From contig NC_136004.1 in NCBI RefSeq assembly GCF_048128805.1, forward strand, positions 17,112,185 to 17,176,184: 64,000 nucleotides of DNA. Direction: 5' to 3'. Positions 24,667 through 62,579 of this stretch are shown here, piece by piece (the stretch's first letter is position 1; each line of letters starts with the position of its first letter). Position numbers and translations under genes: made by a program. Below the pieces are notes generated by a model. That model worked only from the letters and a program-made list of their open reading frames with translations, searched no databases and was not told the origin of the DNA. The DNA comes from Centroberyx gerrardi (Eukaryota > Chordata > Actinopteri > Beryciformes > Berycidae).

Positions 24667-27600
24667 ATGGCAGCGTCAAGCAACGCAGAGGAAACGCAGT
24701 TGCAAGATATGGAGGAAGATGCAGGAATGGAAAGAGAGATGGAATCGGACGAAGAGGAGGGCATGGGTGTCGAAAATTCAGATGACGAAGAGGACGAATC
24801 ATCAGAGGACGAGAAAGAAAATGAAGCCGAAATCCAGCGTTTGGAGGAGCAGGTAACACCTAGCCAACCTAGTTAACGTTAACTAACGTTAGCTAACTAT
24901 CCTAACTGCTAGCTAGCCACAATGAATGGGTTATAAACATATCAGCCGACCGTTAGCCATCAACAACAGGTCAACAACCTCCAAACTGTGGACTACTATG
25001 CACTGTGGTTTAATAGAAATGTAATATGTAGCTACCGTTACCCAAAACAATCAAATGAGCGCGCACTACAATGTGACACGATTAATTCACATAGCTAACG
25101 TCATTAGCTTTCCAGCTAATCTTTGATGCGAATGGCTAGTCTCTGTACCCACGCGCCCTTTTTTTACTTAAGCATGGCTGTGGACTTTTACTGGCCAATG
25201 TCACATTACAACTGTCTGAAGTAGAGTACAGTAGCTGCAGAAGATGCGTTGTACCAACAAGTTTGGGTGTCATTGTATAAACTGTTGTGATAACGTCTTA
25301 TTCAAAATATGTATCGGTCGTGATTGAATCCGTCGCAGTAGTCATGTGTGTCTCATCATGGCGACCTTACACCAAACGACTTTTCAAGCGATTTCACTGT
25401 CGCAGACAAATTTCCAATGTCGGAATAAAATCATGAGAGTTTTGCTCGAGTTGTGGCGCGCTCCCGTCATTTCGTTTGGTGTAAGGTGGTCAGAAAACTC
25501 AGTCCGAGCTGTCTTAAGTCAGTCTTTTTCTCGTCTTGACGTTCCGATAAAATCAAACATGTTTAATATTATCCGAAGTCTTTAGTCTTGGCTCATGCAA
25601 ATAGTGAAGTTCAATGACGTGAACATTGTCAACAACTCTTTTCAAAGTCTTCTAGTGTATGGTAGGCAGTCTTTGCAAAATCTTACAGTCTGTGACTAAA
25701 AACTCAGTGACTTATGACACAGTCTTTAGATGTGAGCTGGATGTGAGAGGGTCTTTAGTCTTTTAAAAGTCTTTTCAAAGTTTTCTAGTGTATGGTAGTC
25801 TTTGTTTCTAGACCACATAAGGATAACTAGGTTATATTTTGTTATATTGATCAAGTTCTTGTCTCCCCTTCTTTGTGTGATTTTCAGCTGTCAATCAATG
25901 CTTTTGACTACAACTGCCATGTGGATCTCATCAAACTACTAAGGCAGGAGGGAGAGCTCTTCCGTCTGCGTAGGGCAAGGCAGAAGATGAGTGAACTTTT
26001 CCCACTCACTGAAGGTTTGTGTATGTCTATTATTTTGGGATCAGCAAAAGCCAATTCACAGCAAGCATACAAATGTATTGTGTCTCCAATTTTACTGAAA
26101 CCACAATTTTACTTACCCTGCAGAGATCTGGCTAGACTGGCTCAAGGATGAGATCCGCCTGACCGAGGAGGAGCCCAACCGGGAAAAAGTCTATGAACTT
26201 TTTGAGAAGGCTGTGAAAGACTATATCTGTGAGTGCATTACAGAATTGTTACTGCCTTTGATTTGACGCACTGTCACTGTGAGAACCTAACATGTAGTCC
26301 CTTGTCTTTACACCCAGGTCCCGATATCTGGCTTGAATATGCCCAGTACTCAATTGGTGGCATGGGGTCACCAGGTGGGATAGACAAGGTGAGGTCCATC
26401 TTTGAGAGAGCCTTGACAGCGGTGGGGCTGCACATGACCAAGGGAGAGACTGTTTGGGAAGCGTACAGGGAGTTTGAGAACGCCATGCTGTCCACAGTAC
26501 AGGTCTGAGTTTCCTTCAGTAGTATTATAGATCTCACCGCTCATCATTCACACACACCCTTGTATTTGCTCTTAACTGTTGGATTGCATGCATATGCCAG
26601 AGAAAGCTTGATTTTGAAAAGGAGAAGGGCAGTTTCTGAGAACAATATTAGACTATGCAAGGTAGTCGCATAAAAAAATGTTGTTACAGTAGTAGCAGAC
26701 AGTAGGTGTTTTAAAACCCATCAACATACCCATCTGTTTGTCAGGTTAATGTTGCACCAAAGCATGCTTTTGATAAATTTTTCCTGAGAGTAGAAAATAC
26801 AAACCTAAAATGCATGATTTAACTCCTTTGATGCTACACAAAATAGGCCTTTCCTGAATTTTGACACCATTTTCTCTCCTTCCTTTCTTCTCAGCCTCCC
26901 CCTGGCAGGGTGCCCACATGTGAGGACCAGGAGCTGCTGAAGACTCAGCTTGAGCGCATCCATACGCTGTTCCGCCGCCAGCTGGCCATCCCCTTAATGG
27001 GTACGGATCCCACCTCCGCCGTCCAGAGGGGGTGCTGTAAAATGGGGAGGATTCTTATTGTGGGGTGGAATCATGGCTCACCTGGGAAATTGTGAATTAC
27101 CTCCTTTTTAAAAAGATCTTTTTGAGCGGGGGGGCATGCACTGCTAATGCGGCCTTATGGGATAAGCTGAGTGTTGCACAGTTGATGTGGTGAGGCTTTT
27201 GAAAAGCCGTACAGGTTTACAAAGACATCACTCTCCAGGCCCAGTTGCACAGTCCCTGACCAGCTTTTCAGTTAATTGCAGGACTGGACTAGAGATAGCC
27301 AGATGGTCTGGTATTGTGCACGTTTTTTCCTGGCCCGGCTGAACGGACACCAGAGGCATTTCTGGAATGGCTCAGCCTCTCTTGTCAATAACCTGTGCCA
27401 GCATTCTGGTTATAATCCTTCTTTATCTGAACATGTCACTTGCTGACTTGTTCCCTCAGATTATGGGACAAAGAAAAGGCAGTATATATGGAAATGTGCA
27501 AATGTATGCTTTTCTGCAGTACACATTTGTCTAACTTTTTAAATCTAAACTTCCTAATATTTACCTTCTTTTTCATACTGTAACTAACTGGTTTAGGTTT

Positions 27601-30600
27601 GTTGGTAGTGTTGAGAAAAGAGAACAGGATCTCTAAAACTGAGAGAACTGTGCTCTTTTGTAGACATGGAGGGCACCTATGCTGAGTATGAGGAGTGGGC
27701 TGAACATGGGGTGCCTGAGACAGTCTCACATCAGTACAAAAGGGCCCTGCAGCAGAAGGAGAAGTGCAAGGCTATTGAAGAGACACTGGTATGTATCTTA
27801 CAATGACACTTCCCGTTTCTCTTTTTTAAATTCTCTTTTTTAAATTTGTTATTGCTAACTATTTATTAGTCTGATATTGTCCTCCTGCATCAATACCTGA
27901 TATGTGACTGAAACGTTTTACAATGCATTTGATATGCCAATGTCTCGCTGCAGCTGGTAGCTGAGCCTCCCAAGCTGGCAGAGTATCAGACCTACATTGA
28001 CTTCGAGCTAAAGGAGGGTGATCCGGCACGCGTCCAGCTTATCTTTGAGCGGGCACTGGCAGAGAACTGCCTGGTACCGGACATGTGGGCGAAATACACC
28101 ACCTATCTTGTGAGTATTGCCCTCCCCCACAATCATGCACCAGTGTTGGGCTGGGCACACTCTTTTTAGGGCTCTCAGTCAGGCAGTGATGTACCAGCTG
28201 GGTGGAGCAAGTGCTCCAATTCAGTGGCCAAATGTATCAAAAGAGACATTCAGAGTCTGTGTACATTTCCTCATCTCTCGACTCAAGATAGCTCCCACCC
28301 CACAAAGAGCTCATAAGAAAGCTATATAAATATTCTATAGATATATCAGTATTTCTGTTTTATCGGGGTGCACAATATGTAACTTAGGCATGAATTCTAA
28401 GAATGACTAAAGTTATAAAGTTATACAAAGTTGTTTCCTCTGTATTCATTTAGCAGTGGTGCGCCACATCAAGGAAATTACCACCACTACTAGAGAAAAT
28501 GTGAAATTAAAATTAGCATTGTAATTTAGTCTTACTATCATTTAAAACTAAAATAAGTGTAGTTCAAATGTTTTAGAAGAAATTATTTTATTATGATAAA
28601 AAAAACATTTTCATCACTACAACCTCAACTTGAAACATAACTTAGACCCAAACAGCGACAGATAGGGACAAAACTAGAATTATCTCCCCAAGCACCACAG
28701 CTGCATAAAATTGCAGAGGAAACACTCTTATGATCTATGGTAGACTAAATGAAACTTCATTCATCACTGACTGAAGATGTGACAGCTCCTCTTCTCACTT
28801 GATCTGTCATGTTTTGGGCCATGTTCGTTTTGCTGCAGTCGCCGGTTTACAAATGTACTTGATTAAGGCAGTACTGGGAGGGTACTGGGCGCTGTGTTGC
28901 ACTGTGGAGCATCTCATCTTAATTACTCACAGCCAGATATCTCTCCAACAGCTCCTCCTGAAATTTATTCATGAGTCTTTTAATTGCTTTAATGGCATGG
29001 TAATTGGCTGCTGACATTGCAAACACTAAACTCACACAATATCCGGTGATTCATCAAGATGATTATCATTATGCTCCTCTGATTAGAGGAAAATGATTTC
29101 ACTAAAATGTTTTCTAACCCTTAACCCATTCATTCCCAAAATGTCTTATTGGATCTTCCTGTGTTTCACTCGCAAAGTTGTAGAACCACAAGGTCATGGA
29201 AGCAGCCATGTCTTGTATGAAGGAAGTTTTTAAACTAATGGTAAAAGTCTCCTGCTTATTATTCAGTGAAGTGATTACATTAATGGAGGTGGACACTAAT
29301 TGAATTGCTTTAAGCTAAGTGATTCAGTCCTACTCATATTTCAAATTATAATGGTTTAGGCCAATTTCCCTCGTTGAATAATGTGAAAATGTGCACAATT
29401 GCACATAAAAGCAGCCTGCATTAATAAGGTAGAGCTGGGGGGCTCTAAAGATGTTGCTACCCATACATAGTAATGATTGAAAATCTGCAAGAGTAGGTGG
29501 GATGTTAGAAGATATGGCTGCCCATAAAAATGACTTTGTATCTGCAGCAAAATGTCTCTATCAGACTGTTTAACCAGTGTTTAGATCATTAAACCCTTTT
29601 TCTATCTGTTTCCTCTGGGCTCCATAGGACCGCCAGCTGAAGATCAAAGACATAGTTCTTTCCTCTCATGACCGTGCCGTCAGGAATTGCCCCTGGACCA
29701 TGGGTCTGTGGAAGAGCTACCTGCTGGCCCTGGAGAGGCACGGGGCCGAGCATCAAACCGTCTCAGGTAACCACAGCTCGGTTGTTTGTTTTGTGTGTGT
29801 TTATTTTCTGCACGTTACAGTTATTTACTGAGTTGTTGGCACAAGCATTAACAGGGTTTGACAGCTAAACGTGAATTAAATAGTATTTTGAAGCCGTAAA
29901 TGATTTATGTATGTATTATTGGTGAAGACTGGCAAAATTGACCTGTATTTTTGTTACAGTGAGGTCTGAAAGATGCAGAGATTAGATAAATTAGAGAACT
30001 GCTTTTAAATATCAATAATAGTAGTATGGAGAAATATCCCACACTATTACATGGAATTTTCTGGGCTCAGTCATCCTGGATTTTTGTCTTCTTCACAGAC
30101 ATTTTTGAAAAGGCGTTGAATGCAGGTTTCATTCAAGCTACGGATTATGTGGACATCTGGCAAGCATATCTTGACTACCTGAGGAGACGCGTAGATTTTA
30201 GCAAAGGTGAGTATGAAATGAATGAAGTATGACTGGTATGAAAACCAGATTTTTCTTTGTGTTTGCGGATAATCCAGTTCAGATTGTTAATTTATTGATG
30301 GTGTTATCTTGCATTTCTCAGAATCAAGTAAAGAGTTAGAGGAGTTACGGACAGCCTTTTCTCGCTCTCTGGACTACATGAAACAAGATGTTGAAGAAAG
30401 TAAGTGGATTCCAGTCTTATTCTTGAATTTATTTATTTATTTATTTTTGTGTCGTTCTTAGTTTTTATTCTCGTTTGACTCACTAATGTCTTGCGCTCCT
30501 GTAGGATTCAGTGAAAGTGGAGATCCTTCCTGTACCATAATGCAGATCTGGGCAAGGATAGAGGTAAGGGTGAGAAATAAAGAATCAAGATAGCAAAGTT

Positions 30601-33600
30601 GACTTGACACCCATTTTGAAGGGTTTGCTGCTCAGGACAAAGTTAACTATGTATTTCACATGCTACCAAAGTACGGTGAAGGAGAATGAGGCCACTGCTA
30701 AAAGACAATTAAGTAAAATGCACTGCAAAGAAGTGAAGGACCTATTGCTGAACTATAGTAGGAGTTTGCGTACTTTTTCCACACATGCTGCAAAATGTGT
30801 GACAATTTTTGTTGAGTAGATGGGGTGGAAAAAAGTGAATTTTTATTATCAAATGACCTAATAGTTTCTCTGGGCAATACTGAATACATTTTTGTTTCAA
30901 AGTAAGACAGAAAATGCATAAATGTCACATACTTTCCCTCTGCATGTAGGCATGTGTAATATGGAAACGGTACAAAAAGTGTCTCATATTTCTACTTTCC
31001 TCTCCCTACCAGGCCCTCCACTGCAAGAACATGCAAAAGGCCAGAGAGCTGTGGGACAGCATCATGACAAAGGGGAATGCCAAATATGCCAATATGTGGC
31101 TGGAGTACTATAACCTTGAAAGGTCTGTCAGCGCACATCTTGGCAAATAAATGAAATATAATTGCTAATTTAAAGTGCAGTGGTTAATACCTTTGTGCTT
31201 AACATTTAGCTAAAAAACTTGTGTATGTTTACCTTGTATGTTTTTTTTTTTTACTTTACCCTCAGGTCTTATGGAGATCCCATCCACTGCCGAAAGGCTC
31301 TCCACAGGGCCGTCCAGTGCACCTCGGACTACCCAGAGCATGTGTGTGAAGTCCTGCTCACCTTTGAGAGGGTGGAAGGTAGGGATGCACCGATACCGTT
31401 TTTTTACTGCCGATCCGATAACGATACCAGAATTTTGAGTATTAACCGATACCGAGTACCGATCCAATATTGACCCCTTTTTTTCTTCTGTAATTACACA
31501 GCTGCATACAACATGTAAATAACATGGGAACAATAATTTTATTGTTAAAAAAAAGAAAAGCAGCAGGGCAAAAGAACTGACCAAAATAGGAATGACAGTT
31601 CCTAGGATATATAAGATTGCTGCAATATAGGGATACAGTGCAAAAAAACTCACAAAAGTGCAAAAGAGCAATAAACTGACCAGTGCATACTGCTACAAAA
31701 CAATATTGAAACAACCATACAGCCTTTGCTTATATTTTTTTTCCTCTTCTTTAGTGTGAATAACTGACAGAAAAAATACTGCTACACATAGGCTTTTTCT
31801 GGACATAACATCCAGTGTGTGCCAAGTCTAGTCTAGTTTTAATCACTTAGGACAAGGGGCAGGTTTTTCTTCAGAAACAGAAGCATCTCACCTCTCTCTG
31901 CTGTCGGCCTGTTCCTCCGTTCACTGACAGTGTTGACAGTCGCTGACGCACGCACAGGTCGCGTCAGCGCCATCAGCGCGGTAGCATTAGCTTTAGCCCC
32001 CATCTCCAAAAAGCTTTGTTTTGTGAAAACGGAAGACTTAATTGAAACCTTTATGGTGGCGTGTACATGATACTAAGCCCAAGGACACTCGATGTAAGTT
32101 TGAGCTAAGGAGCAGGCGTTTGGAAGGCGTCGCCAGATGAAGTTCTTGGTAAAGTGAGTTGGATAAAGATCTTTGGGACGCTAGTAATGGCATAGCCATC
32201 TAGCATCCCTTTGTGGCTAAAATAATTCCCAACCGCTGACATGTTTACATCAGCACATTGCCTGCACGCTCGCTTTCTTTTTCCAACTTCTTCACTCACT
32301 CGTGTCGCGTCACGTGCAAACTCAGGCATGTTTTACGGCAGGCGACTACGCCCGTTTATTACTCCGGGGGCTCGAACTGATTGCTCTGGATCGGATCGGA
32401 TTATAACGTTAGCTGCCACCGATGTCCGATCCAGCATTTTAGGCCAATATCGTCCCGATACCGATGCCAAGTATCGGATCGGTGCATCCCTAGTGGAAGG
32501 TGAGTCAGGAGAAAAGAGTGGAATTAATTAGTTAAGTTTGAGTCCCTGGTTGTGGGAATAAAACCTGATGTACGCTGTGGTTTACTGTAATGGCCATCTG
32601 TACTTTTTTTTATTTATCTATTTATTCATTTTTATGTTTCTGGGTGTATATTGTTTAAGTTAAATGTTGTGGGTTTTTTTTATTGTTGTTTATTGTCTGT
32701 TGTCCTGTATTATTTTGTCTTTTCCAATGAGAAATGCCAATAAACAAACCATGGGGAAAATTTGAGTCCCTGGAACAACTGGGGAAAATATGGGCAGAAA
32801 CTGTAAATGGTTAACGCTCTCTCCTCCCTCACCAACTACCACTGAGGTGCCCTTGAGCCAGGCACTTAACCCGAGGTGATGCTGTGTGAGGACTGGTTGC
32901 ACTGGGCAGTGGGTTTGTGTGAAATGTATGTGAAGCAGGGCGTTGCTGGAAAAAGCATGAGTGGTCAGCAAAACTTCCTGTATAAATAAAGGTTAAACTA
33001 AGGGAAGATAAGGGATAAAAATGAATATGTTCATAAATTACAGTCTGTCTCTGAATGTTTGTGCCCTCTCACCTACAGGTTCTCTGGAAGACTGGGATGT
33101 GGCAGTGCAGAAGACCGAGACCCGGTTGAACAGGATCAATGAGCAACGGGCAAAAGTAAGAGAACATATCAGCACTGTAACAGTACAGGTCCGTCATTTT
33201 CGCTGCTGTTGGCTCACGTTACTGTCCTCCACCCATCTGTCAGGTGGCCGAGAAAGAAGCCAACCTGGTCCGCCAGGAGGAGGACAAGGCTGAGCAGCGG
33301 CGGAAGTCCAAGGCAGACAAGAAGGCTCAGAAGAAGGGCCAAAAGGGAATTCGAGCTGGGGAGAAGAGGAGAGCAGAGGATGATTATCAGAATGAATGGG
33401 ATGAACAGTCAGGTAAGGAAAGATAGACTGGCCTATACAGTTTGTATGATAATAGTATTTTTCTAGAAAGAATGACCCGTGAGAAAATCGGTGAACATAA
33501 TGTCATCTATGCTTTCTCTCTCTGTGTGTGACAGATCAAGCTCCTAAGAGGCACAGAGGAGACGGCGAGCCCGGCACTGAGGAGTACATGGAGACAGAGG

Positions 33601-35345
33601 CGGGACTGTTTGGGCGGAAAACTCCTGCTGGCCACAGGCTCGGGCCACCTGGCGCTAAAAAAGCCCAGCAGGGAGCAGCGGCCGCCGCTCAGAGGCAGCA
33701 AGACGACAAGCCCGAGCTCCGCAACGATAACAACAGCGTGTTCATCAGCAACCTGGCGTACACCCTGGAGGAGCCGGAGAGCAAGCTCAGGACACTGTTT
33801 GAGACCTGTGGTCCCCTCCAGCAGGTGCGCCCGGTCTTCAGCAACAAGGGCACCTTCAAAGGCTATTGCTACGTGCAGTTCGAGTCCCAAGCATCTGTCC
33901 CCATAGCCCTGAAGCTGGACCGACGAGAAGTGGAGGGCAGGCCCATGTTCGTATCGCCGTGTGTAGACAAAAACACAAACCCTGATTTTAAGGTAAATAT
34001 GACCGATTGTGTTTGTATGGATTTGGGGGCAGATGAATATGAGGTTGTATTCAGCTTGGACACAAGTGGGCCACGTTCCTTTTTGTATTATAACATGCAG
34101 TACCAGTGACCACTTGACATTAATTTCCCTATAGGTGTTCAAGTACAACTCGTCTATGGAGAAACACAAAATCTTCATCTCGGGGCTGCCCTTCTCCTGC
34201 ACCAAGGAGCAGCTGGAGGAGCTGTGCAAGAGTCACGGCACCGTTAAAGATGTTCGTCTGGTCACATATCGGTCAGGCAAACCCAAGGTGAGGCATACTG
34301 CAGGAGGAAGGACAGCGTCCAGATGTTCGGCTAAAAATAATCACTGTGATTCAGCTAATGAGTCCCACTTTTGACCATTCAGCAAAAAGCACATGGCTTT
34401 TTGAGTGCAGGGGGGAAAGTTAGTGGTTCTAATAAATGGTGAGAATCTCCAAGCCATTAAGAATTTCACATTAATATTCATATCTATCTGTGACATGCTA
34501 ATTGTTCACAAGAATCGCAAAAAAAAGGCTCCGTTGATGCTTTTAAAATGTAGTGACATACTCATTAACCTCCTTTTTGCTGTGTGGCTGTTCAGGGTCT
34601 GGCATATGTTGAGTTTGAAGATGAAGCTCAGGCTTCTCAGGCAGTGCTGAAACTGGACGGCATGGATATAGAGGACAACAAAATATCGGTCGCCATCAGT
34701 AACCCTCCTCGCAGAAGCATGAAGGATACACCTGGTTCCAGTGGGGCCATGGCAGCCACGATGACTCGCCAGGTCTATGGAGCGTAAGTTTGATCCACTT
34801 CTCTGTCACGCTAACTGAAATATGCTTGTTTGCACAGTGAATGTATGCAGAAGTTACAGATTGGCTCAGATTTTTAAATGTTACTGATATTATCAGATCT
34901 GCAGCAGCTGTTGACCATTGTTGAGATTTTATCTTTGAACAGATTGTATAGAGTTAAGTTTGGTTGTGAAATATACAATTTATCTTTATATCAGTGATGG
35001 GAAATGCAAGTATTATCTAAAAAGACATTTACTATAGAAGCAGCCATAATGCTAAGCTTATAGTTGGTAGCCCTTGGAGCTACAGTATATTCATAGCCCA
35101 GTACAAGAACAAAATTTGGGCCAAGAAATCAAAGATGTTTTTCTTTTTCCAGGAGAGGGAGAGGACGCACCCAGCTCTCACTACTCCCTCGTTCCCTGCA
35201 TCGACCAAGTGGGCCCCCGAGCAAAGCGGAGAATGGGACTGCGACTAAACCAATACCAGCGAACGCAGCTGGAGACGCTGGGTTTGAAGCACAGGCAAAA
35301 CCTTTGTCGAATTCAGACTTTGCCAGAATGCTCCTCAATAAGTGA
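24667..35345 (+). CDS. sart3: SART3, U4/U6 snRNP recycling factor (19 coding exons)
   Basis: SART3 (Prp24-like) reanneals U4 and U6 snRNA and carries USP4/USP15 to the spliceosome. Coding exons: 24667-24852, 25888-26014, 26124-26228, 26318-26502, 26895-27000, 27664-27788, 27954-28109, 29628-29766, 30099-30206, 30322-30399, 30505-30563, 31013-31122, 31266-31378, 33079-33155, 33244-33412, 33535-33992, 34135-34287, 34596-34783, 35153-35345. The total is 2835 nt, 944 residues (human 963). An acidic N-terminus precedes HAT repeats (LSINAFDYNCHVDL, LEYAQYSIGG, IFERALAENCLVPDMW, NAGFIQATDYVDIWQAYLDY, AVQCTSDYPEHVCEVLL), a Lys/Arg-rich NLS, RRM1 (SVFISNLAY, GYCYVQF), RRM2 (KIFISGLPF, GLAYVEF) and the C-terminal SNSDFARMLLNK LSm-binding motif. 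Oddities: the exon 2 donor is a weak GTTTGT; exon 5 adds about 18 residues versus human; a hAT element occupies the exon 13 donor. The start is the only in-frame ATG, in good context. Confidence 0.96.
25330..25830. repeat. Unclassified repeat-like patch in sart3 intron 1
   Basis: CCTTACACCAAACGA at 25365-25379 is exactly inverted at 25472-25486 (TCGTTTGGTGTAAGG). Downstream, a 28-nt string (CTTTTCAAAG..TTCTAGTGTATGGTAG) occurs at about 25638 and again at 25771 with one mismatch, with scattered AGTCTTT words. It looks like a decayed DNA transposon. I cannot name a family. Confidence 0.45.
28110..29627 (+). other. sart3: sart3 intron 7
   Basis: A 1.5-kb AT-rich intron with no exon or RNA gene recognised. 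Confidence 0.7.
31372..31379. repeat. Upstream 8-bp target duplication of the hAT insertion
   Basis: GTGGAAGG, identical to 32493-32500. Its last G together with the first T of the element forms the GT of the donor now bounding sart3 exon 13. Confidence 0.9.
31380..32492. mobile_element. Non-autonomous hAT transposon inserted at the sart3 exon 13 splice donor
   Basis: 1113 bp flanked by perfect 8-bp direct repeats GTGGAAGG, the hAT hallmark. The left end TAGGGATGCACCGAT is exactly inverted at the right end (ATCGGTGCATCCCTA). Sub-terminal CCGATAC/GTATCGG words repeat in both orientations. No transposase-like ORF is present. The site overlaps the end of sart3 coding exon 13, so the element begins one base inside the new donor. 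Identical target duplications and matching termini suggest a fairly recent insertion. Confidence 0.92.
32493..32500. repeat. Downstream 8-bp target duplication carrying the ancestral donor
   Basis: GTGGAAGG followed by TGAGTC. With the next base this rebuilds GTGGAAG/GTGAGT, the presumed original exon 13 end and donor, now 1.1 kb inside the intron. Confidence 0.9.
32799..33002 (+). mobile_element. SINE fragment in sart3 intron 13
   Basis: The words TGAGGTGCCCTTGAGCCAGG, CACTTAACCC and a terminal CCTGTATAAATAAAGGTTAA match the body and 3' tail of teleost tRNA-SINEs. The Pol III box region is missing or degenerate. Confidence 0.5.
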
Positions 35346-38172: not shown

Positions 38173-39629
38173 TCAGTTGTGGACTGGGATAGTCTGTTTG
38201 CAGTCGGGACAGGCCTGGTGCTGACCGGCTCCTGGCAGCCCCACAGCGTACTCAGTCGTCGCAATCAACAGCGTGTCCAATGTGATCTCTGTGCATTTGG
38301 CTATGAACCGAATGAAGGGCCGGACATCACCCTCGTTGGCCGTGTCTAGAGCTGCATAATATTCAGCCCTTTGTTCTTTGCGAATTGTAATAGGCGGGTA
38401 CCGTGCTTGCATGAGCACAAGGTTCATTAGCAGGCGTGATGTGCGTCCATTGCCGTCTACAAACGGGTGCACGTACACCAGTTTGTAGTGGGCAAGCGCT
38501 GCGTACTCCACCGGGTGCAGCTGGAGGGCCTCCTCCGAGTTGAGCCACTGAACCAGCTCCTGCATGTGTCGGTCCAGGTCCTGAGGGTGGGGTGGGATGT
38601 GGTGGCCTACAAACACCTGGCTGGTGCGCAGCCTCCCCCCCTCCACAGGGTCTGCGTAGCCAAGCACGCGCCGGTGGATCTCCAGGATGTCGGTGACGGT
38701 GATGGCTCCGGCTCGGGACAGCAGAGTGGTGTTGATGTACTTCATGGCTGCATCCACACCGATGGCCTCGTTCTGCTCCTGCAGGCTCTTGCCTGGGACG
38801 GCGTAGCGCGTCTCTATGATGTGACGGATCTCGGACAGAGTGAGCGTGTTGCCTTCGATGGCCACCGTGTGGTAGATGTGGTGGTAGTAGGTTTCCTCCA
38901 TCACGCGTCGGAGTGCAGAATTGCCCTTAGGGATGGACATAAGCCTGCGCACTTTACTGTCAATGATGCCAAAGTGACGCTGGTCAATCTCCTCCACCAG
39001 GGGAAGGGTGCGGTCTCGGCTGACCAGAGCGCGCTCGTTGCACGGCGAGATGGCCAGGGCCTTGGTGTAGAGGTGGTCTGCCTGGACAACATCCTTCTCC
39101 TCCTCCAAAATGGTCCCCAGCTCCGTCAGGGCGTCCACAAAGTCTGGGTTCATGTTGAGCGCGTGCACCAGCAGCTTGTGGGCCTTCTCTCTCTTCCCCT
39201 GCTTCTTCATCTCCACAGCCTGCTGCAGGGCTGCTTTGGCCTCCAGCTCTGTCTCTGCAATCAGCACATAACACACAGCGTCATCTCCAGTACTCTCTCC
39301 ATATAGCAACGTTTCAACACACAACAGGGCAAATGGACAGTGAGGTGATTGCTTTTACCTTTGCTAGGCTTGGACCTATGAGGCAGCAGGTCCAGGGCGG
39401 TGAAGGGGACAGTGAGGCTGGTGGACTGCACACTGGGCTGTTGAGAGCTTCCCCACAGCTGGCAGCGTATTTGAGCAATGCCCTTCAGAGTGGCACAGCA
39501 CTGGTCCTCCACCCCGACCATCGGCATCAACAGCGCCACCAAAGACCCGAGGAGGACACACAGCAGCGGCCCCCATCCTCCAAGGACACGGCCACAGGTG
39601 TAACGCCACACCGTTAAAGTAGCCATCAT
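38173..39629 (-). CDS. ficd: FICD (HYPE), ER protein adenylyltransferase
   Basis: FICD AMPylates and de-AMPylates the ER chaperone BiP, tuning it to protein load. Two coding exons on the minus strand, 39629-39359 and 39254-38173, give 450 residues (human 458). Exon 1 holds a signal-anchor helix ([17 protein letters not shown], about 21-37). Exon 2 has two TPRs (about 93-165), the inhibitory-helix motif TVAIEGN with Glu224 (human Glu234) and the Fic core [12 protein letters not shown] with catalytic His353 (human His363). [14 protein letters not shown] and the [10 protein letters not shown] segment are also conserved. The residue shift of 10 is constant for both key residues, which supports the exon join. 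The start is the first in-frame ATG (MMATL). The frame is open upstream but only from a TTG, and a possible tiny 5'UTR intron lies there. The gene appears intact, in the usual FICD-SART3 neighbourhood. Confidence 0.97.
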
Positions 39630-43589: not shown

Positions 43590-44440
43590 CCAGTATTTAG
43601 GCTTCCACTAATAATCTCCCTGAATCAACTCTAATCTTGGGACAGGCTGCACAGTGTCTAGTAGGATATCAAGAAGGAAAGCATCCAGTTCTCTGAGGGA
43701 TGAAGGAGGTAAAAATGCATTTCGTACTGCAGAACTTCCCATAAACAGTCTAGAAGGGTCTTCTGGTGGCTGGGGAGGCCATGGGAGGCATTTGACTTCA
43801 TCCTGATGTTCATCAAACCACTCTTCAATTTGTTTAGCAGTGTGCATTGGGACATTATCATCTTGGAATATGGGAACATCATGAGGTCCCAAAAATGGCC
43901 TCATATTCCTTTGCCATTACACGACCATGCAGAGCAACCATCGGATCTATTGACTCCCACAAGATGGCTGCCAATACCATTTCACATCCACAACCATGGG
44001 TGAAGGCTTTCTCCAAAAGAAAACCCGTCCGGATGTAGGAAAACAGGTGAAAGATCACTCAAAAGACCATATTACTTATTTATGGCTTGAATACAAACGG
44101 TTTTCAAATGGCAGCCCTGCTATAAATACCAGCTTTGTGAAGCTCATGACGTACAGTTTTTGTTGAAAGTGTGTCACAGAAGTGTTTGTTCATTTCTGTG
44201 GTCATTTTTGAGGACGTAATTTTGTGTTGTGTTTAGCAACAATCCTGAATCTATCCCTACTGACTTGCAGCCACTGCTCCTCTTCACTGATGCAGTTTGT
44301 CTGTGTTTTGCATGTTGTCATGATTTTCAAGGCCGTTCCTCTTGCCACATTAAACATTTTGCAGTTTTTACCGTACCTACAGTTTGGGTAATAACTATTT
44401 GGCCTATTTGGAACTCTGTTAGTTGCCTCATGTTGCTTTG
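43590..44440 (-). pseudogene. Decayed Tc1/mariner-like transposase
   Basis: On the minus strand, broken reading frames give in order: KMFNVARGTALKIM (helix-turn-helix region); then MTTEMNKHFCDTLSTKTVRH and ELHKAGIYSRAAI, the usual STKTVRRELHK..GRAA block; then HLFSYIRTG. The catalytic core follows as IFQDDNVPMHTAKQIEEWF and VKCLPWPPQPPED, where the second catalytic Asp region is recognisable. Stops and frameshifts separate these pieces. The conserved SPDLNPIE acidic motif is damaged to PPEDPS. I did not find intact terminal inverted repeats. It is a dead Tc1-like copy. Confidence 0.8.
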
Positions 44441-57849: not shown

Positions 57850-58232
57850 TGTCATGATCTGGCTCTTTGTGTTTTGCCCGCCCACCTAATCCTTTTCCTT
57901 TCTCCCTCTCCCTCAGCAGGTTCATGCAGAGGGGCGGGGCCGATCTCCACGGGAGTGAGGCTCACAAGGCACACCTGTCTCTCATCCCGCAATCAGCCCG
58001 GCTTCTTAAGCCTGCTCCAAATTCTCCCCAGTGCCAGATGATTCCCGCACATGCTCGTGTCTCATGCCTCCTCGCTCTCGTGAAGATCTCCTGTCGTAGT
58101 GTTTCCTCAGCGTATCACTTGTAGATACTCTAGTCCCAGTTTTCTAGTGAGTTTTTGTTAACTTTCGGAAATAAACTGTTTTTGTTCGATTCTGCATCTG
58201 GGTCCTGGCTCTCCTTGAACACACCCCTAACA
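57850..58232 (+). repeat. 5' LTR
   Basis: 383 bp, TGTCATGATC..CCCTAACA. A TATA-like TTCTTAAG at 58003-58010 sits 23-30 nt before the segment GCCAGATGATTC (58033-58044), the probable RNA 5' end. The poly(A) signal AATAAA is at 58170-58175. U3, R and U5 are therefore roughly 57850-58030, 58031-58195 and the remainder. It differs from the 3' LTR only at 57879 (C versus T). Confidence 0.96.
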
Positions 58233-58244
58233 GAATCATCTGGC
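58233..58244 (+). other. Putative self-priming primer-binding site
   Basis: GAATCATCTGGC begins at the base right after the LTR. It is the exact reverse complement of 58033-58044 within the same LTR. There is no TGG-starting tRNA complement directly after the LTR. Tf1 and vertebrate sushi elements prime reverse transcription by folding the mRNA 5' end onto such a site. Confidence 0.8.
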
Positions 58245-58248
58245 CAGA

Positions 58249-59277
58249 ATGGACCCAGCAGAATCTGAGAGTTTTAAGCGGGTGCTCTCTAGCCAGGCAG
58301 CAGTGGTTAATCAGCACGAGTCGTCCCTGCTCCAGGTGATGGAACACCTGCAGCAGCTCACCGCCAGCGTGTCTCAACTGGGCGGCCAACTGGAGGCCAT
58401 CAAAGACCAAGTGATTCCACCTTCCGGCTCTTCCCCTCGACTCCAAGCAGCTGACCAGACCGCCAGTCCAGCGCAGCAAACCAGAGAGCCCTACATCCCT
58501 ATACCTGCCAGGTATTCCGGTGATTTAGGGACATGTGCTCAGTTTCTCCATCAGTGTTCACTAGTGTTTAGCCAACAGCCTAATACATATGCTTCTCAGT
58601 CAGCTAAAATTTCATTTGTCATGAGTTTACTCACAGGACAGGCAGCCGCCTGGTCCTTAGCCATCTCAGGGCAGCAATCAGACCTCCTCACTGACTACAA
58701 ACTATTCTCAGATGAGATGAAGCGGGTTTTCGACCACCCAGTCAAGGGTAGACAGGCAGTGGGTCAATTGCTGGATCTTCAGCAGGGAAACCAGCCAGTG
58801 TCACAGTTTGCTGTAAGTTTCCGCATTCTAGCCGCGGAGAGCGGGTGGGGGGACGCAGCCCTTCAGGCTGTTTTTTGTAAAGGGCTCTCCAGTGAAATTA
58901 AAGATGAGCTGGCAGTGCGTGAAGAATGCTCCTCACTTAACCAACTCATAGATTTAGCCATCAGACTAGATAACAGACTGAGGGAGAGGAATAGGGAAAG
59001 ACTGGAAACCAGGAGAAGACCTGCAGCCGGTTCCTCGCCTCCCGTCCAGGACCCCGCACCACCCACTCAAGGCTCCACCCTCCTCGCCCACGAGTCCCGC
59101 CAACCCCCAGCGGAGGAATCCATGCAGCTCGGACGGGCGCGCCTGACCCCAGCGGAACGACAGAGGCGGATGACAGGGAGACTCTGCCTCTACTGCGGCC
59201 AAGAGGGACATTACGCCAGCCGCTGTCCGGAGGTGCCAAAAGGCCAGGCTCACCAGGGAACAGGAGGTTCCTGGTGA
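58249..59277 (+). CDS. gag: Gag of the gypsy element
   Basis: 342 residues, starting at an ATG only 16 nt after the LTR. An N-terminal coiled-coil-like segment (about 10-55; [20 protein letters not shown]) precedes the retrotransposon capsid domain (about 80-245; [31 protein letters not shown], and [14 protein letters not shown] with [13 protein letters not shown]). A basic Arg-rich linker leads to one CCHC zinc knuckle (C313, C316, H321, C326; [14 protein letters not shown]). The capsid resembles the sushi gag from which the mammalian RTL/MART and PEG10 genes derive. It forms the particle and packages RNA. The frame ends in TGA inside the open pol frame. Confidence 0.93.
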
Positions 59278-62200
59278 GCCGAATCTCGTCATCCTCCGCT
59301 TCACGCCTCCGGGTGGCAGGTACGATTCACGCCACACAACACTCCCTCTCGGTCGAGGTCTTGGTCGACTCGGGGGCAGATGACAATTTCATTGACATTA
59401 GTTTCGTTAAAGCCCATGGCCTACCTGTGTATAAGCTAACCTCACCCAAGGAGATCCACTCCATAGATGGTAAATTGTTGGAAATTGTTACTCACAAGAC
59501 CGAGCCCCTTAAGCTACTTCTTTCCAGCAATCATCACGAGCATGTTGAATTGTTTGTCATCACCTCCCCCCTTAACAACGTCATCTTGGGCATTCCCTGG
59601 CTCAAGCGGCATAACCCCCACATTGACTGGGTCACGGGCACCATCCGTAAGTGGAGCCTGTACTGCCATGCTCACTGCCTGCAATCTGCAGTCCCGGCCC
59701 GGATCTCCAGCTCCTGCCAGCAACCCGAGGAAATTGACCTGACTAATGTCCCCTCCGAGTACCATGACTTAAAGGAGGTGTTCAGTAAGACTTCTGCCAG
59801 CACCCTTCCCCCGCATAGACCTTACGACTGTGCAATCGAGTTGCTCCCCGGGTCACCCCTCCCTACCAAGCGGTTGTATAACCTCTCCAAGCCTGAAAGG
59901 GAGGCTATGGAGAGTTATATCACCGACTCGGTAGCGGCGGGGCTGATCCGGCCCTCTTCCTCACCTGTAGGGGCGGGCTTTTTCTTCGTTGAGAAAAAGG
60001 ACAAAACGCTCCGCCCCTGTATTGACTACACAGGACTTAACGACATCACAGTCAAGAACAAGTACCCTCTTCCCCTCATAGACTCTGCGTTCAGCCCCCT
60101 ACACGACGCCTGCGTTTTCTCAAAATTAGATTTGAGAAACGCCTACCATCTCGTCAGGATCCGTGAGGGGGATGAATGGAAGACTGCGTTTAACACGCAC
60201 CTGGGACACTTTGAGTATCGGGTGATGCCTTTTGGACTGACTAATGCTCCTGCTGTTTTTCAATGTTTGGTAAATGATGTGTTACGAGACTTACTAAACA
60301 AGGTTGTGTTCGTTTACCTCGATGACATTTTGATTTTCTCACGGTCCCAAGATGAACATGTTAGTCACGTCCGGGATGTCTTACAAAGACTCCTAGAAAA
60401 CAAGCTCTATGTCAAGGCTGAGAAATGTGAGTTTCATGTGTCTTCTGTCAGTTTCTTAGGATACGTGGTGGAGAAGGGGCAGCTGCGGGCCGACCCCTCA
60501 AAGGTGGAGGCAGTCAGGGAGTGGCCTGTTCCCACCACTCACAAGCAACTACAACGCTTCCTAGGGTTTGCTAATTTTTACAGACGGTTCATAAGAAACT
60601 ATAGCCGGATAGCGGCCCCTCTCTCTTCTCTCACCTCGAGTAAAGTAAACTTTGCCTGGTCACCTACTGCTGATGCTGCTTTTGGCACACTGAAAGACAT
60701 GTTTATTAAAGCGCCTGTCCTTGCTCACCCAGATCCTGAGCAGCAGTTTGTGGTCGAGGTTGATGCCTCGGATTCAGGGGTCGGGGCCGTCCTCTCCCAG
60801 CGCCAGCCTGCGGACGGCAAGCTCCACCCCTGCGCTTTCTTCTCTCGTCGCCTCAGTCCTGCGGAGCGCAACTACGACGTGGGAAACCGAGAGCTATTGG
60901 CGGTGGTTCTGGCTCTTCAGGAGTGGCGGCACTGGTTGGAGGGGTCTGCGCAGCCATTCATCATGTGGACAGACCACAAGAACCTGTCATACCTGCGCAC
61001 AGCGCGGCGCCTCAACTCCCGTCAGGCCTGGTGGGCTCTCTTCCTGGGCCGGTTCTCCTACACCCTCACCTATCGCCCCGGTTCGAGGAACGTCAAGCCA
61101 GATGCACTCTCCCGACAGTTTTCCGAGGAAGAGAGGGAGCCCAGCAGTGAGACCATCCTTCCTCCCGCCTGTGTGGTGGGGGCGCTCCGGTGGCGGGTCG
61201 AGAAGGAGGTCCAGGAAGCCCTCCAGGGACAAACAGTGCCGGACGGGTGCCCTCCCGGACGGCTTTTCGTTCCCGTGGTCACGAGATCTTCAGTGCTCTC
61301 TTGGGGACACGCCTCCCGGATAGCCTGCCACCCGGGAGTCCATCGCACCCTCACATTGGTTCAGCAGCGTTTTTGGTGGCCGTCCATGGCTGCTGATGTT
61401 CGAGCCTTCATTGCCGCCTGCACGGTGTGTGCTCGCAACAAGGCCTCACACCGTCCCCCGGCGGGTCTCCTCCAGCCCCTACCCATTCCTCCACGCCCTT
61501 GGTCTCACATAGCAGTGGATTTTGTTACGGGCCTGCCTCCCTCAGAAGGAAACGACACCATTTTGACTATTGTGGATCGGTTCTCCAAGGCGGTTCATTT
61601 TGTTCCCCTTCCCAAGCTCCCCTCCGCCTTGGAGACCGCTAATCTGTTAGTTCGGCATGTGTTCAGGCTCCATGGTATCCCCCAGGACATCGTATCGGAC
61701 CGAGGTCCACAATTCACCTCCCAGGTATGGAAGGCTTTCTGTCGGGCTCTGGGGGCCGCCACCAGTCTCACCTCCGGCTACCATCCCCAATCTAACGGGC
61801 AAACAGAACGGGCCAATCAGGACCTCGAGACTGCTCTCCGCTGCGTCGCCTCCCGGCTCCCCTCCTCCTGGGCGACACACCTTCCCTGGGTGGAGTATGC
61901 GCACAACTCCTTGATCAGCTCGGCCACGGGTATGTCCCCGTTCATGATCAACACAGGATTCCAACCCCCTCTATTCCCCAGTCAGGAGTCCGACGCAGCG
62001 GTGCCCTCGGTTCGGGCCCAGTTCCGCCGGGTCAGACGGGTGTGGCGTGAGACCAGGGCAGCGTTGGGTAGGACCGCTGAACGGAATCGGCGGTTGGCAG
62101 ACCGTCACCGGATCCCTGCTCCCAACTACAAGGTGGGTCAAGAGGTATGGCTGTCATCACGAGATCTTCCCCTCCAGACCGAGTCCAGAAAAATGGCCCC

Positions 62201-62579
62201 CAGGTACGTCGGTCCCTACACGGTGGAGAAAGTGATCAACCCCAGTGCCGTCCGGCTCCGCCTCCCTGCCTCACTGAACGTCCACCCGGTGTTCCACGTC
62301 TCCCTCCTGAAACCTGTCTCGGTCAGCCCTCTCCAACCACCAGTGCCACCGCCTCCTTCCCCCCGTCTCATCGAGGGTCACCCAGCATACACAGTCACCC
62401 GCATTCTGGACGTCCGCAGGCGGGGCCGAGGATATCAGTACCTGGTGGATTGGGAGGGGTACGGTCCCGAGGAGCGCTCCTGGATCTCGCGCTCCCTCAT
62501 CCTCGACCCACAACTGCTGCGAGAGTTCTACAGTAGGTACCCGGGTAAGCCAGGTAGGACGCCTGGAGGCGTCCATTAG
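59274..62579 (+). CDS. pol: Pol of the gypsy element: protease, RT, RNase H, integrase, chromodomain
   Basis: An open frame of 1101 codons, -1 relative to gag. It has no ATG at its beginning, so it is presumably made as Gag-Pol by frameshift. Domains by codon number from 59274: aspartic protease (DSGA at 32-35); reverse transcriptase about 190-400 ([34 protein letters not shown] at 348-351); RNase H about 490-610 ([20 protein letters not shown]); integrase zinc region H686, H690, C716, C719; catalytic core D749, D809, E845; GPY/F region ([11 protein letters not shown], about 977-987); C-terminal chromodomain about 1038-1090 ([15 protein letters not shown]). All catalytic residues are present and no stop interrupts the frame. 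The true N-terminal boundary of Pol lies upstream within the overlap. Confidence 0.94.

Follow-up and report, generated by a model that had tools for sequence, protein, structure and literature searches.

What becomes of a splice donor when a transposon lands inside it? The question is raised by sart3 of Centroberyx gerrardi, which lies in the 64,000-nt stretch of DNA analyzed here (the window), since direct reading of the sequence places a 1,113-bp element between bases +1 and +2 of sart3 intron 13. The original prediction held that this is a hAT-type element, that it rebuilt the exon 13 donor out of its target duplication and its own terminus, and that such hits at exon ends may be nearly neutral. 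The first two of these claims agree with our results, which are presented below together with the probable consequences for sart3 splicing and with the other copies of the element that bear on the third.

Results and Discussion

Anatomy of the insertion

The element is flanked by two copies of the 8-bp duplication GTGGAAGG and is bounded by perfect 15-bp terminal inverted repeats (Table 1). Read in order, exon 13 ends in ...GAGAGGGTGGAAG and continues as GTAGGGATGCACCGAT..., and 1.1 kb later the element closes with ...ATCGGTGCATCCCTA, followed by GTGGAAGGTGAGTCAGG. The left edge reads GTGGAAG/GTAGGG and the right edge GTGGAAG/GTGAGT. The left GT is composite, its G (31379) closing the duplication and its T (31380) opening the inverted repeat, while the probable ancestral donor, GTGAGT, has been pushed 1,121 nt downstream into the intron, both as predicted. 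At the right edge, CCCTA and the G of the duplication spell AG, and the element plus one base of the duplication on each side forms a GT...AG unit (31379-32493). Exon reading also gives 31378 to 33079 and 32499 to 33079 as the two candidate junctions, and translation into the element meets the in-frame stop that had been expected there.

Table 1. Features of the sart3 locus, in window coordinates.
Feature	Position	Strand	Basis
sart3 coding sequence: 19 exons, encoding 944 aa via the new donor	24667..35345	+	frame, homology, GT-AG borders
sart3 exon 13, as it would be spliced via the rebuilt donor	31266..31378	+	reading frame, phase; junction motif in homologues
Left TSD copy GTGGAAGG (7 exon bases and the G of GT)	31372..31379	+	sequence reading
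Rebuilt 5' splice site GTAGGG (TAGGG contributed by the transposon end, the preceding G by the duplication)	31379..31384	+	8.79 bits
Non-autonomous hAT-type element, 1,113 bp	31380..32492	+	TIRs, genomic matches, TSDs of other copies
Left TIR TAGGGATGCACCGAT	31380..31394	+	perfect 15-bp inverted repeat
In-frame TGA on read-through of the element (563-aa product)	31471..31473	+	translation
AATAAA within the element, possible premature polyadenylation signal	31670..31675	+	sequence match only
Right TIR ATCGGTGCATCCCTA	32478..32492	+	perfect 15-bp inverted repeat
Right TSD copy GTGGAAGG; with the TIR end reads CCCTA/G = AG	32493..32500	+	sequence reading
GTGAGT, probable ancestral 5' splice site, at present within the intron	32500..32505	+	12.18 bits
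sart3 exon 14 (acceptor after 33078)	33079..33155	+	hand-set exon

The 19 exons of sart3 were set by hand, and translation through the donor at 31378 gives 944 aa without internal stops. The closest protein in the collection searched is SART3 of Centroberyx affinis, which is identical at 926 of 944 positions with no gaps, and the best PDB sequence match is 5ctq, the SART3 HAT-domain structure. Across the exon 13/14 junction, all 120 homologues listed (of 629 found, the list including several isoforms of one species) carry FER[VI][ED]G[ST] with no insertion there. A search with C. affinis SART3 of the 778.9-Mb assembly to which the window belongs gave 20 matches, of which 19 fall within this sart3; the remaining one, on C16, is weak and concerns the RRM portion of the protein. 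By this search sart3 is a single-copy gene. Among the homologues, the Sander lucioperca models P0038-P0040 carry a precomputed PF13358 domain and an N-terminal region unlike that of P0042, and are probably annotation fusions with a transposase fragment.

Three further features of the window were recognized by eye. A likely ficd (Fic-domain AMPylase) adjoins sart3, as judged from its translation (38173-39354, minus strand), a fragment resembling a Tc1-type DDE transposase lies at 43608-43916 (minus strand), and long frames that resemble the gag and pol genes of Ty3-type LTR retrotransposons occupy 58231-62579 (plus strand), including a 1,194-aa frame at 58995-62579.

The element belongs to a young family

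At least 43 matches to the element, at least 39 of them end to end, are present in the same assembly; these counts are lower bounds, as 40 of 766 first-look candidates were scored. Examination of 41 of the 43 matches (two short pieces were left out) shows perfect 8-bp duplications in 35 of the 39 full-length copies, representing 34 distinct sites. A chance inverted repeat is therefore ruled out as a reading of the element. Base counts over the 34 sites are 17 for G at position 1, 24 for T at position 2, 22 for A at position 7 and 11 for G at position 8, with both G1 and G8 at 7 of them, and the preference of the family approximates GTnnnnAn.

Elements of the hAT superfamily have short inverted repeats of the YAGGG type and follow the target rule nTnnnnAn. 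The present element has the short repeat, in the form of a perfect 15-bp TAGGGATGCACCGAT, and the 8-bp duplication, both at sart3 and in the full-length copies, and the two fixed target positions are seen in its site preference (T2 in 24/34 and A7 in 22/34), though the sart3 duplication itself has T at position 2 but G at position 7. Four translated stretches of the element gave no Pfam match and one element end gave no protein match. Because no transposase was recognized, the element is treated as non-autonomous, a transposase being expected in autonomous members only, and its putative assignment to hAT rests on its ends and its duplications.

Compared with the majority base of 30 copies, the sart3 copy shows 8 differences, 3 of them private substitutions, plus 9 gap columns; the 30 copies are the best matches to the sart3 copy, and dating by this comparison is therefore imprecise. 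The family is young and recently active, and the youth of the sart3 copy is clear.

Several copies are informative in their own right. At L008 (G000:C19:5151238-5153489), one copy lies inside another, with pieces 1-152 and 145-1113 flanking a full copy and its duplication GTTCCCAT. Two copies on C23, L028 (G000:C23:19556760) and L031 (19545172), share the same 20-bp flanks and the same duplication, and probably go back to segmental duplication of the locality, not to separate insertions. Shorter related elements, with 341-371 bp between duplications, have the same 15-bp left terminus (L046, L048 and L050, also L062 and L063), which by sequence is common to more than one non-autonomous family. 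Outside this genome, the search of prokaryote contigs returned a single exact match, of 19 nt, to a Lentisphaerae MAG, which shows no similarity beyond it and is put down to chance, and the search of viral contigs returned no match.

Strength of the rebuilt donor

Donors were scored with a vertebrate donor matrix, which gives 8.79 bits for the rebuilt site and 12.18 bits for the ancestral one, the latter being at the level of the best among the other 17 sart3 donors. The new donor had been described as weaker-looking, which is right in relation to the old one but not in relation to the gene, where 6 of the 17 other donors score at least 8.79 bits. Over the window, 26 of 3,789 plus-strand GT sites reach that score, the rebuilt site and the true donors counted in. 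If the matrix is built from the remaining 17 sart3 donors instead, the rebuilt site scores 6.82, and in leave-one-out scoring 9 of the 17 lie higher and 8 lower. On these scores the rebuilt donor is ordinary, mid-range for sart3 and not poor.

The outcome depends on where the element lands. Placed in silico at offsets −6 to +8, the element abolishes the donor at the exon end for −6 to 0 and yields scores of 8.79 at +1, 7.21 at +2, 4.51 at +3 and 6.87 at +4, whereas from +5 onward the original score is retained. Offset +1, as found in sart3, is thus predicted to give the best-scoring rebuilt donor and to be the most upstream position at which a donor is kept. It is not the sole tolerable one by these scores, and +2 and +4 also fall inside the range of real sart3 donors. 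The apparent precision of the insertion may be explained by survivorship.

Secondary structure was considered as well. In the predicted RNA fold the two inverted repeats pair almost fully, taking in donor bases +2 to +6. The GT is paired as well in local folds that combine exon 13 with no more than the first 100-400 nt of the element. Since the ancestral donor is predicted to be paired too when the empty site is joined, the folds favor neither side.

Probable splicing of sart3 through the rebuilt donor

In the mechanism that we propose, the exon 13 donor was interrupted between its G and its T by a recently active element, non-autonomous and of hAT type. A usable donor would result at the upstream edge because the 8-bp duplication ends in the donor G and the terminus starts TAGGG, giving AAG/GTAGGG with the exon boundary unchanged. 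We infer that this donor would be used efficiently enough for the spliceosome to join 31378 to 33079 in most cases, producing normal SART3 mRNA, with the intron enlarged from 579 to 1,700 nt and the ancestral donor at 32499 bypassed. That sart3 is spliced mostly in this way is, in our judgment, probable. In its favor, the exon boundary and phase are preserved exactly, the 944-aa frame is intact, the new donor scores in the ordinary range, and the assembly yielded neither a second sart3 nor an empty site. Against it, the old donor, 1.1 kb downstream, is still in place and is the stronger of the two, and the predicted pairing of the inverted repeats over the new donor could slow U1 binding.

If the old donor were to dominate instead, exon 13 would retain the element and grow to 1,234 nt, and the product would be a partial loss-of-function allele. 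The higher score of the ancestral site (12.18 vs 8.79 bits), the predicted pairing of the rebuilt one and the AATAAA inside the element are all consistent with such an outcome. However, it needs a 1,234-nt internal exon, of a kind that vertebrate exon definition disfavors, whereas the rebuilt donor is mid-range for sart3 and gives a normal-sized exon of 113 nt. The peptide encoded by reading into the element was also absent from the protein collection searched, a weak negative. Dominance of the old donor is therefore considered unlikely.

Transcripts that do use the old donor would reach the stop after 563 codons, with 1,026 nt still to go to the next junction, and a stop far upstream of a junction is the standard configuration for NMD. 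Read-through was predicted at the outset to give a truncated protein. While the stop is indeed there, the mRNA is expected to be mostly an NMD substrate, or to be ended at the AATAAA at 31670, before any stable short protein is made. A stable truncated SART3 is possible by the AATAAA route or by escape from NMD.

Skipping of exon 13, or use of a cryptic donor, in many transcripts seems very unlikely to us. A weakened donor often causes skipping, but here the donor score is ordinary for the gene and loss of the 113-nt exon would shift the frame.

The GT...AG edges suggest yet another outcome, in which the element is spliced out as an intron of its own, from GT 31379-31380 to AG 32492-32493, and the old donor is then used, leaving a 6-nt microexon, TGGAAG, that adds VE in frame. 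The AG in question is weak, with a score of −1.11 bits that is equaled or exceeded by 1,328 of the 4,236 AGs in the window, although the lowest of the 18 real sart3 acceptors, at −2.9 bits, is the one that falls below it (1/18). Exons of 6 nt are also rarely recognized, and the 120 homologues listed all lack an insertion at this junction. These points make it extremely improbable that the element is removed as a separate intron.

Persistence of the insertion

The presence of the element in an assembly does not by itself imply that it is neutral or that the new donor is required, as it may be a low-frequency or heterozygous allele that the assembly happened to catch. Such an origin is a serious possibility, to which we assign a little under an even chance, and it is compatible with splicing through the rebuilt donor. 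The 3 private substitutions in 1,113 bp, the 8 differences from the majority of 30 copies and the intact inverted repeats and duplication all fit a recent event, in which case a harmful allele might still be segregating. Against it, no empty allele is found in the assembly, though a collapsed haploid assembly would hold none: a search there for the 19-bp empty junction with up to 1 mismatch returned a single match, which lies in an unrelated CA repeat on C17.

In zebrafish, defects of blood stem cells are reported for sart3 nonsense mutants whose product is predicted to be without the RRM (PMC8492694), and a fully disrupting sart3 allele should therefore be selected against, a point in favor of splicing through the rebuilt donor. 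The claim that normal SART3 requires the new donor would hold for carriers without an intact allele, but not beyond them.

Search for other copies at exon ends

Near-neutrality at exon ends had been put forward as a property of the family, and a search of other genes for the element at such positions bears on this directly. The left edge MAG/GTAGGGATGCACCGAT occurs at 10 places genome-wide, sart3 included. A right edge with its duplication (up to 1 mismatch) is present at 6 of these 10 MAG/GTAGGG sites, and none with up to 1 mismatch was found at the other 4 within the stretch examined. Scores of the joined empty sites are 12.18 bits for sart3, 7.39 for L048 and at most 3.59 for the other four. 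There is no open upstream frame of at least 30 aa at L048, and six upstream frames from 5 of the 9 other sites gave no Pfam match passing the cut-off (best E 0.12). Among the 10 edges, sart3 alone combines a strong ancestral donor with a recognizable coding frame, and the search turned up no second case. The right-edge pattern followed by GTRAGT is found at 2 sites genome-wide, sart3 and a truncated copy on C7; the latter was rejected as a second strong-donor case, with no coding exon evident by eye. Near-neutral and common hits at exon ends are thus not supported by the sequence as a habit of the family, of which one case is known.

A bolder reading would make the family a latent intron maker in a vertebrate, with the sart3 copy as the first survivor to be caught and donor positions from +1 onward as a predictable safe zone for TAGGG-ended hAT elements. 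The ends TAGGG...CCCTA and the target GTnnnnAn do set G/T and TA/G flush with the element edges at 7 of 34 sites, yet we find this reading quite doubtful. Given the 8-bp duplication, any exonic insertion with such edges would, when spliced, add exactly 6 nt, in frame.

Comparison with known systems

Events of this kind are known, and the sart3 insertion adds a natural example without involving a new mechanism. Introners take their splice sites wholly or partly from target duplications and sometimes add codons, as described in parts of PMC9860276. Like them, the sart3 element would draw splice sites partly from its duplication, the G of GT and the G of AG both coming from it in the sequence; it also shares the combination of TSD and TIR seen in many introner families, the GT...AG edges and the possible added codons. 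In the same parts of that paper, introners are many copies, each a new intron, whereas here an existing intron is enlarged in one gene and the old acceptor would be used; near-identical copies as introns in many coding exons were not found, sart3 standing alone among the 10 MAG edges. The whole words "hAT" and "vertebrate" do not occur in the main text of PMC9860276.

Maize Ac/Ds, itself of the hAT superfamily, is a second point of comparison. In the portion of PMC3260210 that covers them, the Ds ends read C/TAGGGATGAAA...TTTCATCCCTA, and Ac/Ds has in common with the present element an 8-bp TSD and terminal TAGGGATG...CATCCCTA. Ds likewise supplies donors from the beginning of the transposon; in the sections of PMC5432752 concerned, those of Ds1 lie within 35 bp of its termini and were examined in the context of element exonization, while the sart3 donor spans the junction and leaves the exon boundary where it was. 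Among vertebrates, 109 new exons from DNA repeats are given for zebrafish in a part of PMC2911107. Exonization and intronization as treated there resemble the sart3 case in the use of transposon-supplied signals by host splicing, but no transposon sequence need enter the sart3 mRNA. Further background on transposons and splicing is found in portions of PMC10901741 and PMC6593561. Our literature search, conducted mostly outside subscription papers, returned no report of a vertebrate hAT insertion that rebuilds a donor across the TSD-TIR junction.

Conclusions

If use of the donor is confirmed, sart3, whose own product takes part in spliceosome recycling, would offer a young, natural, single-copy test of the extent to which a splice site can pass to a transposon end while the protein stays unchanged. 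A rule open to genome-wide testing also follows for TAGGG-ended elements with 8-bp duplications: no insertion upstream of the position between +1 and +2 would retain a donor at the exon end, and surviving copies near donors should therefore stop sharply there.
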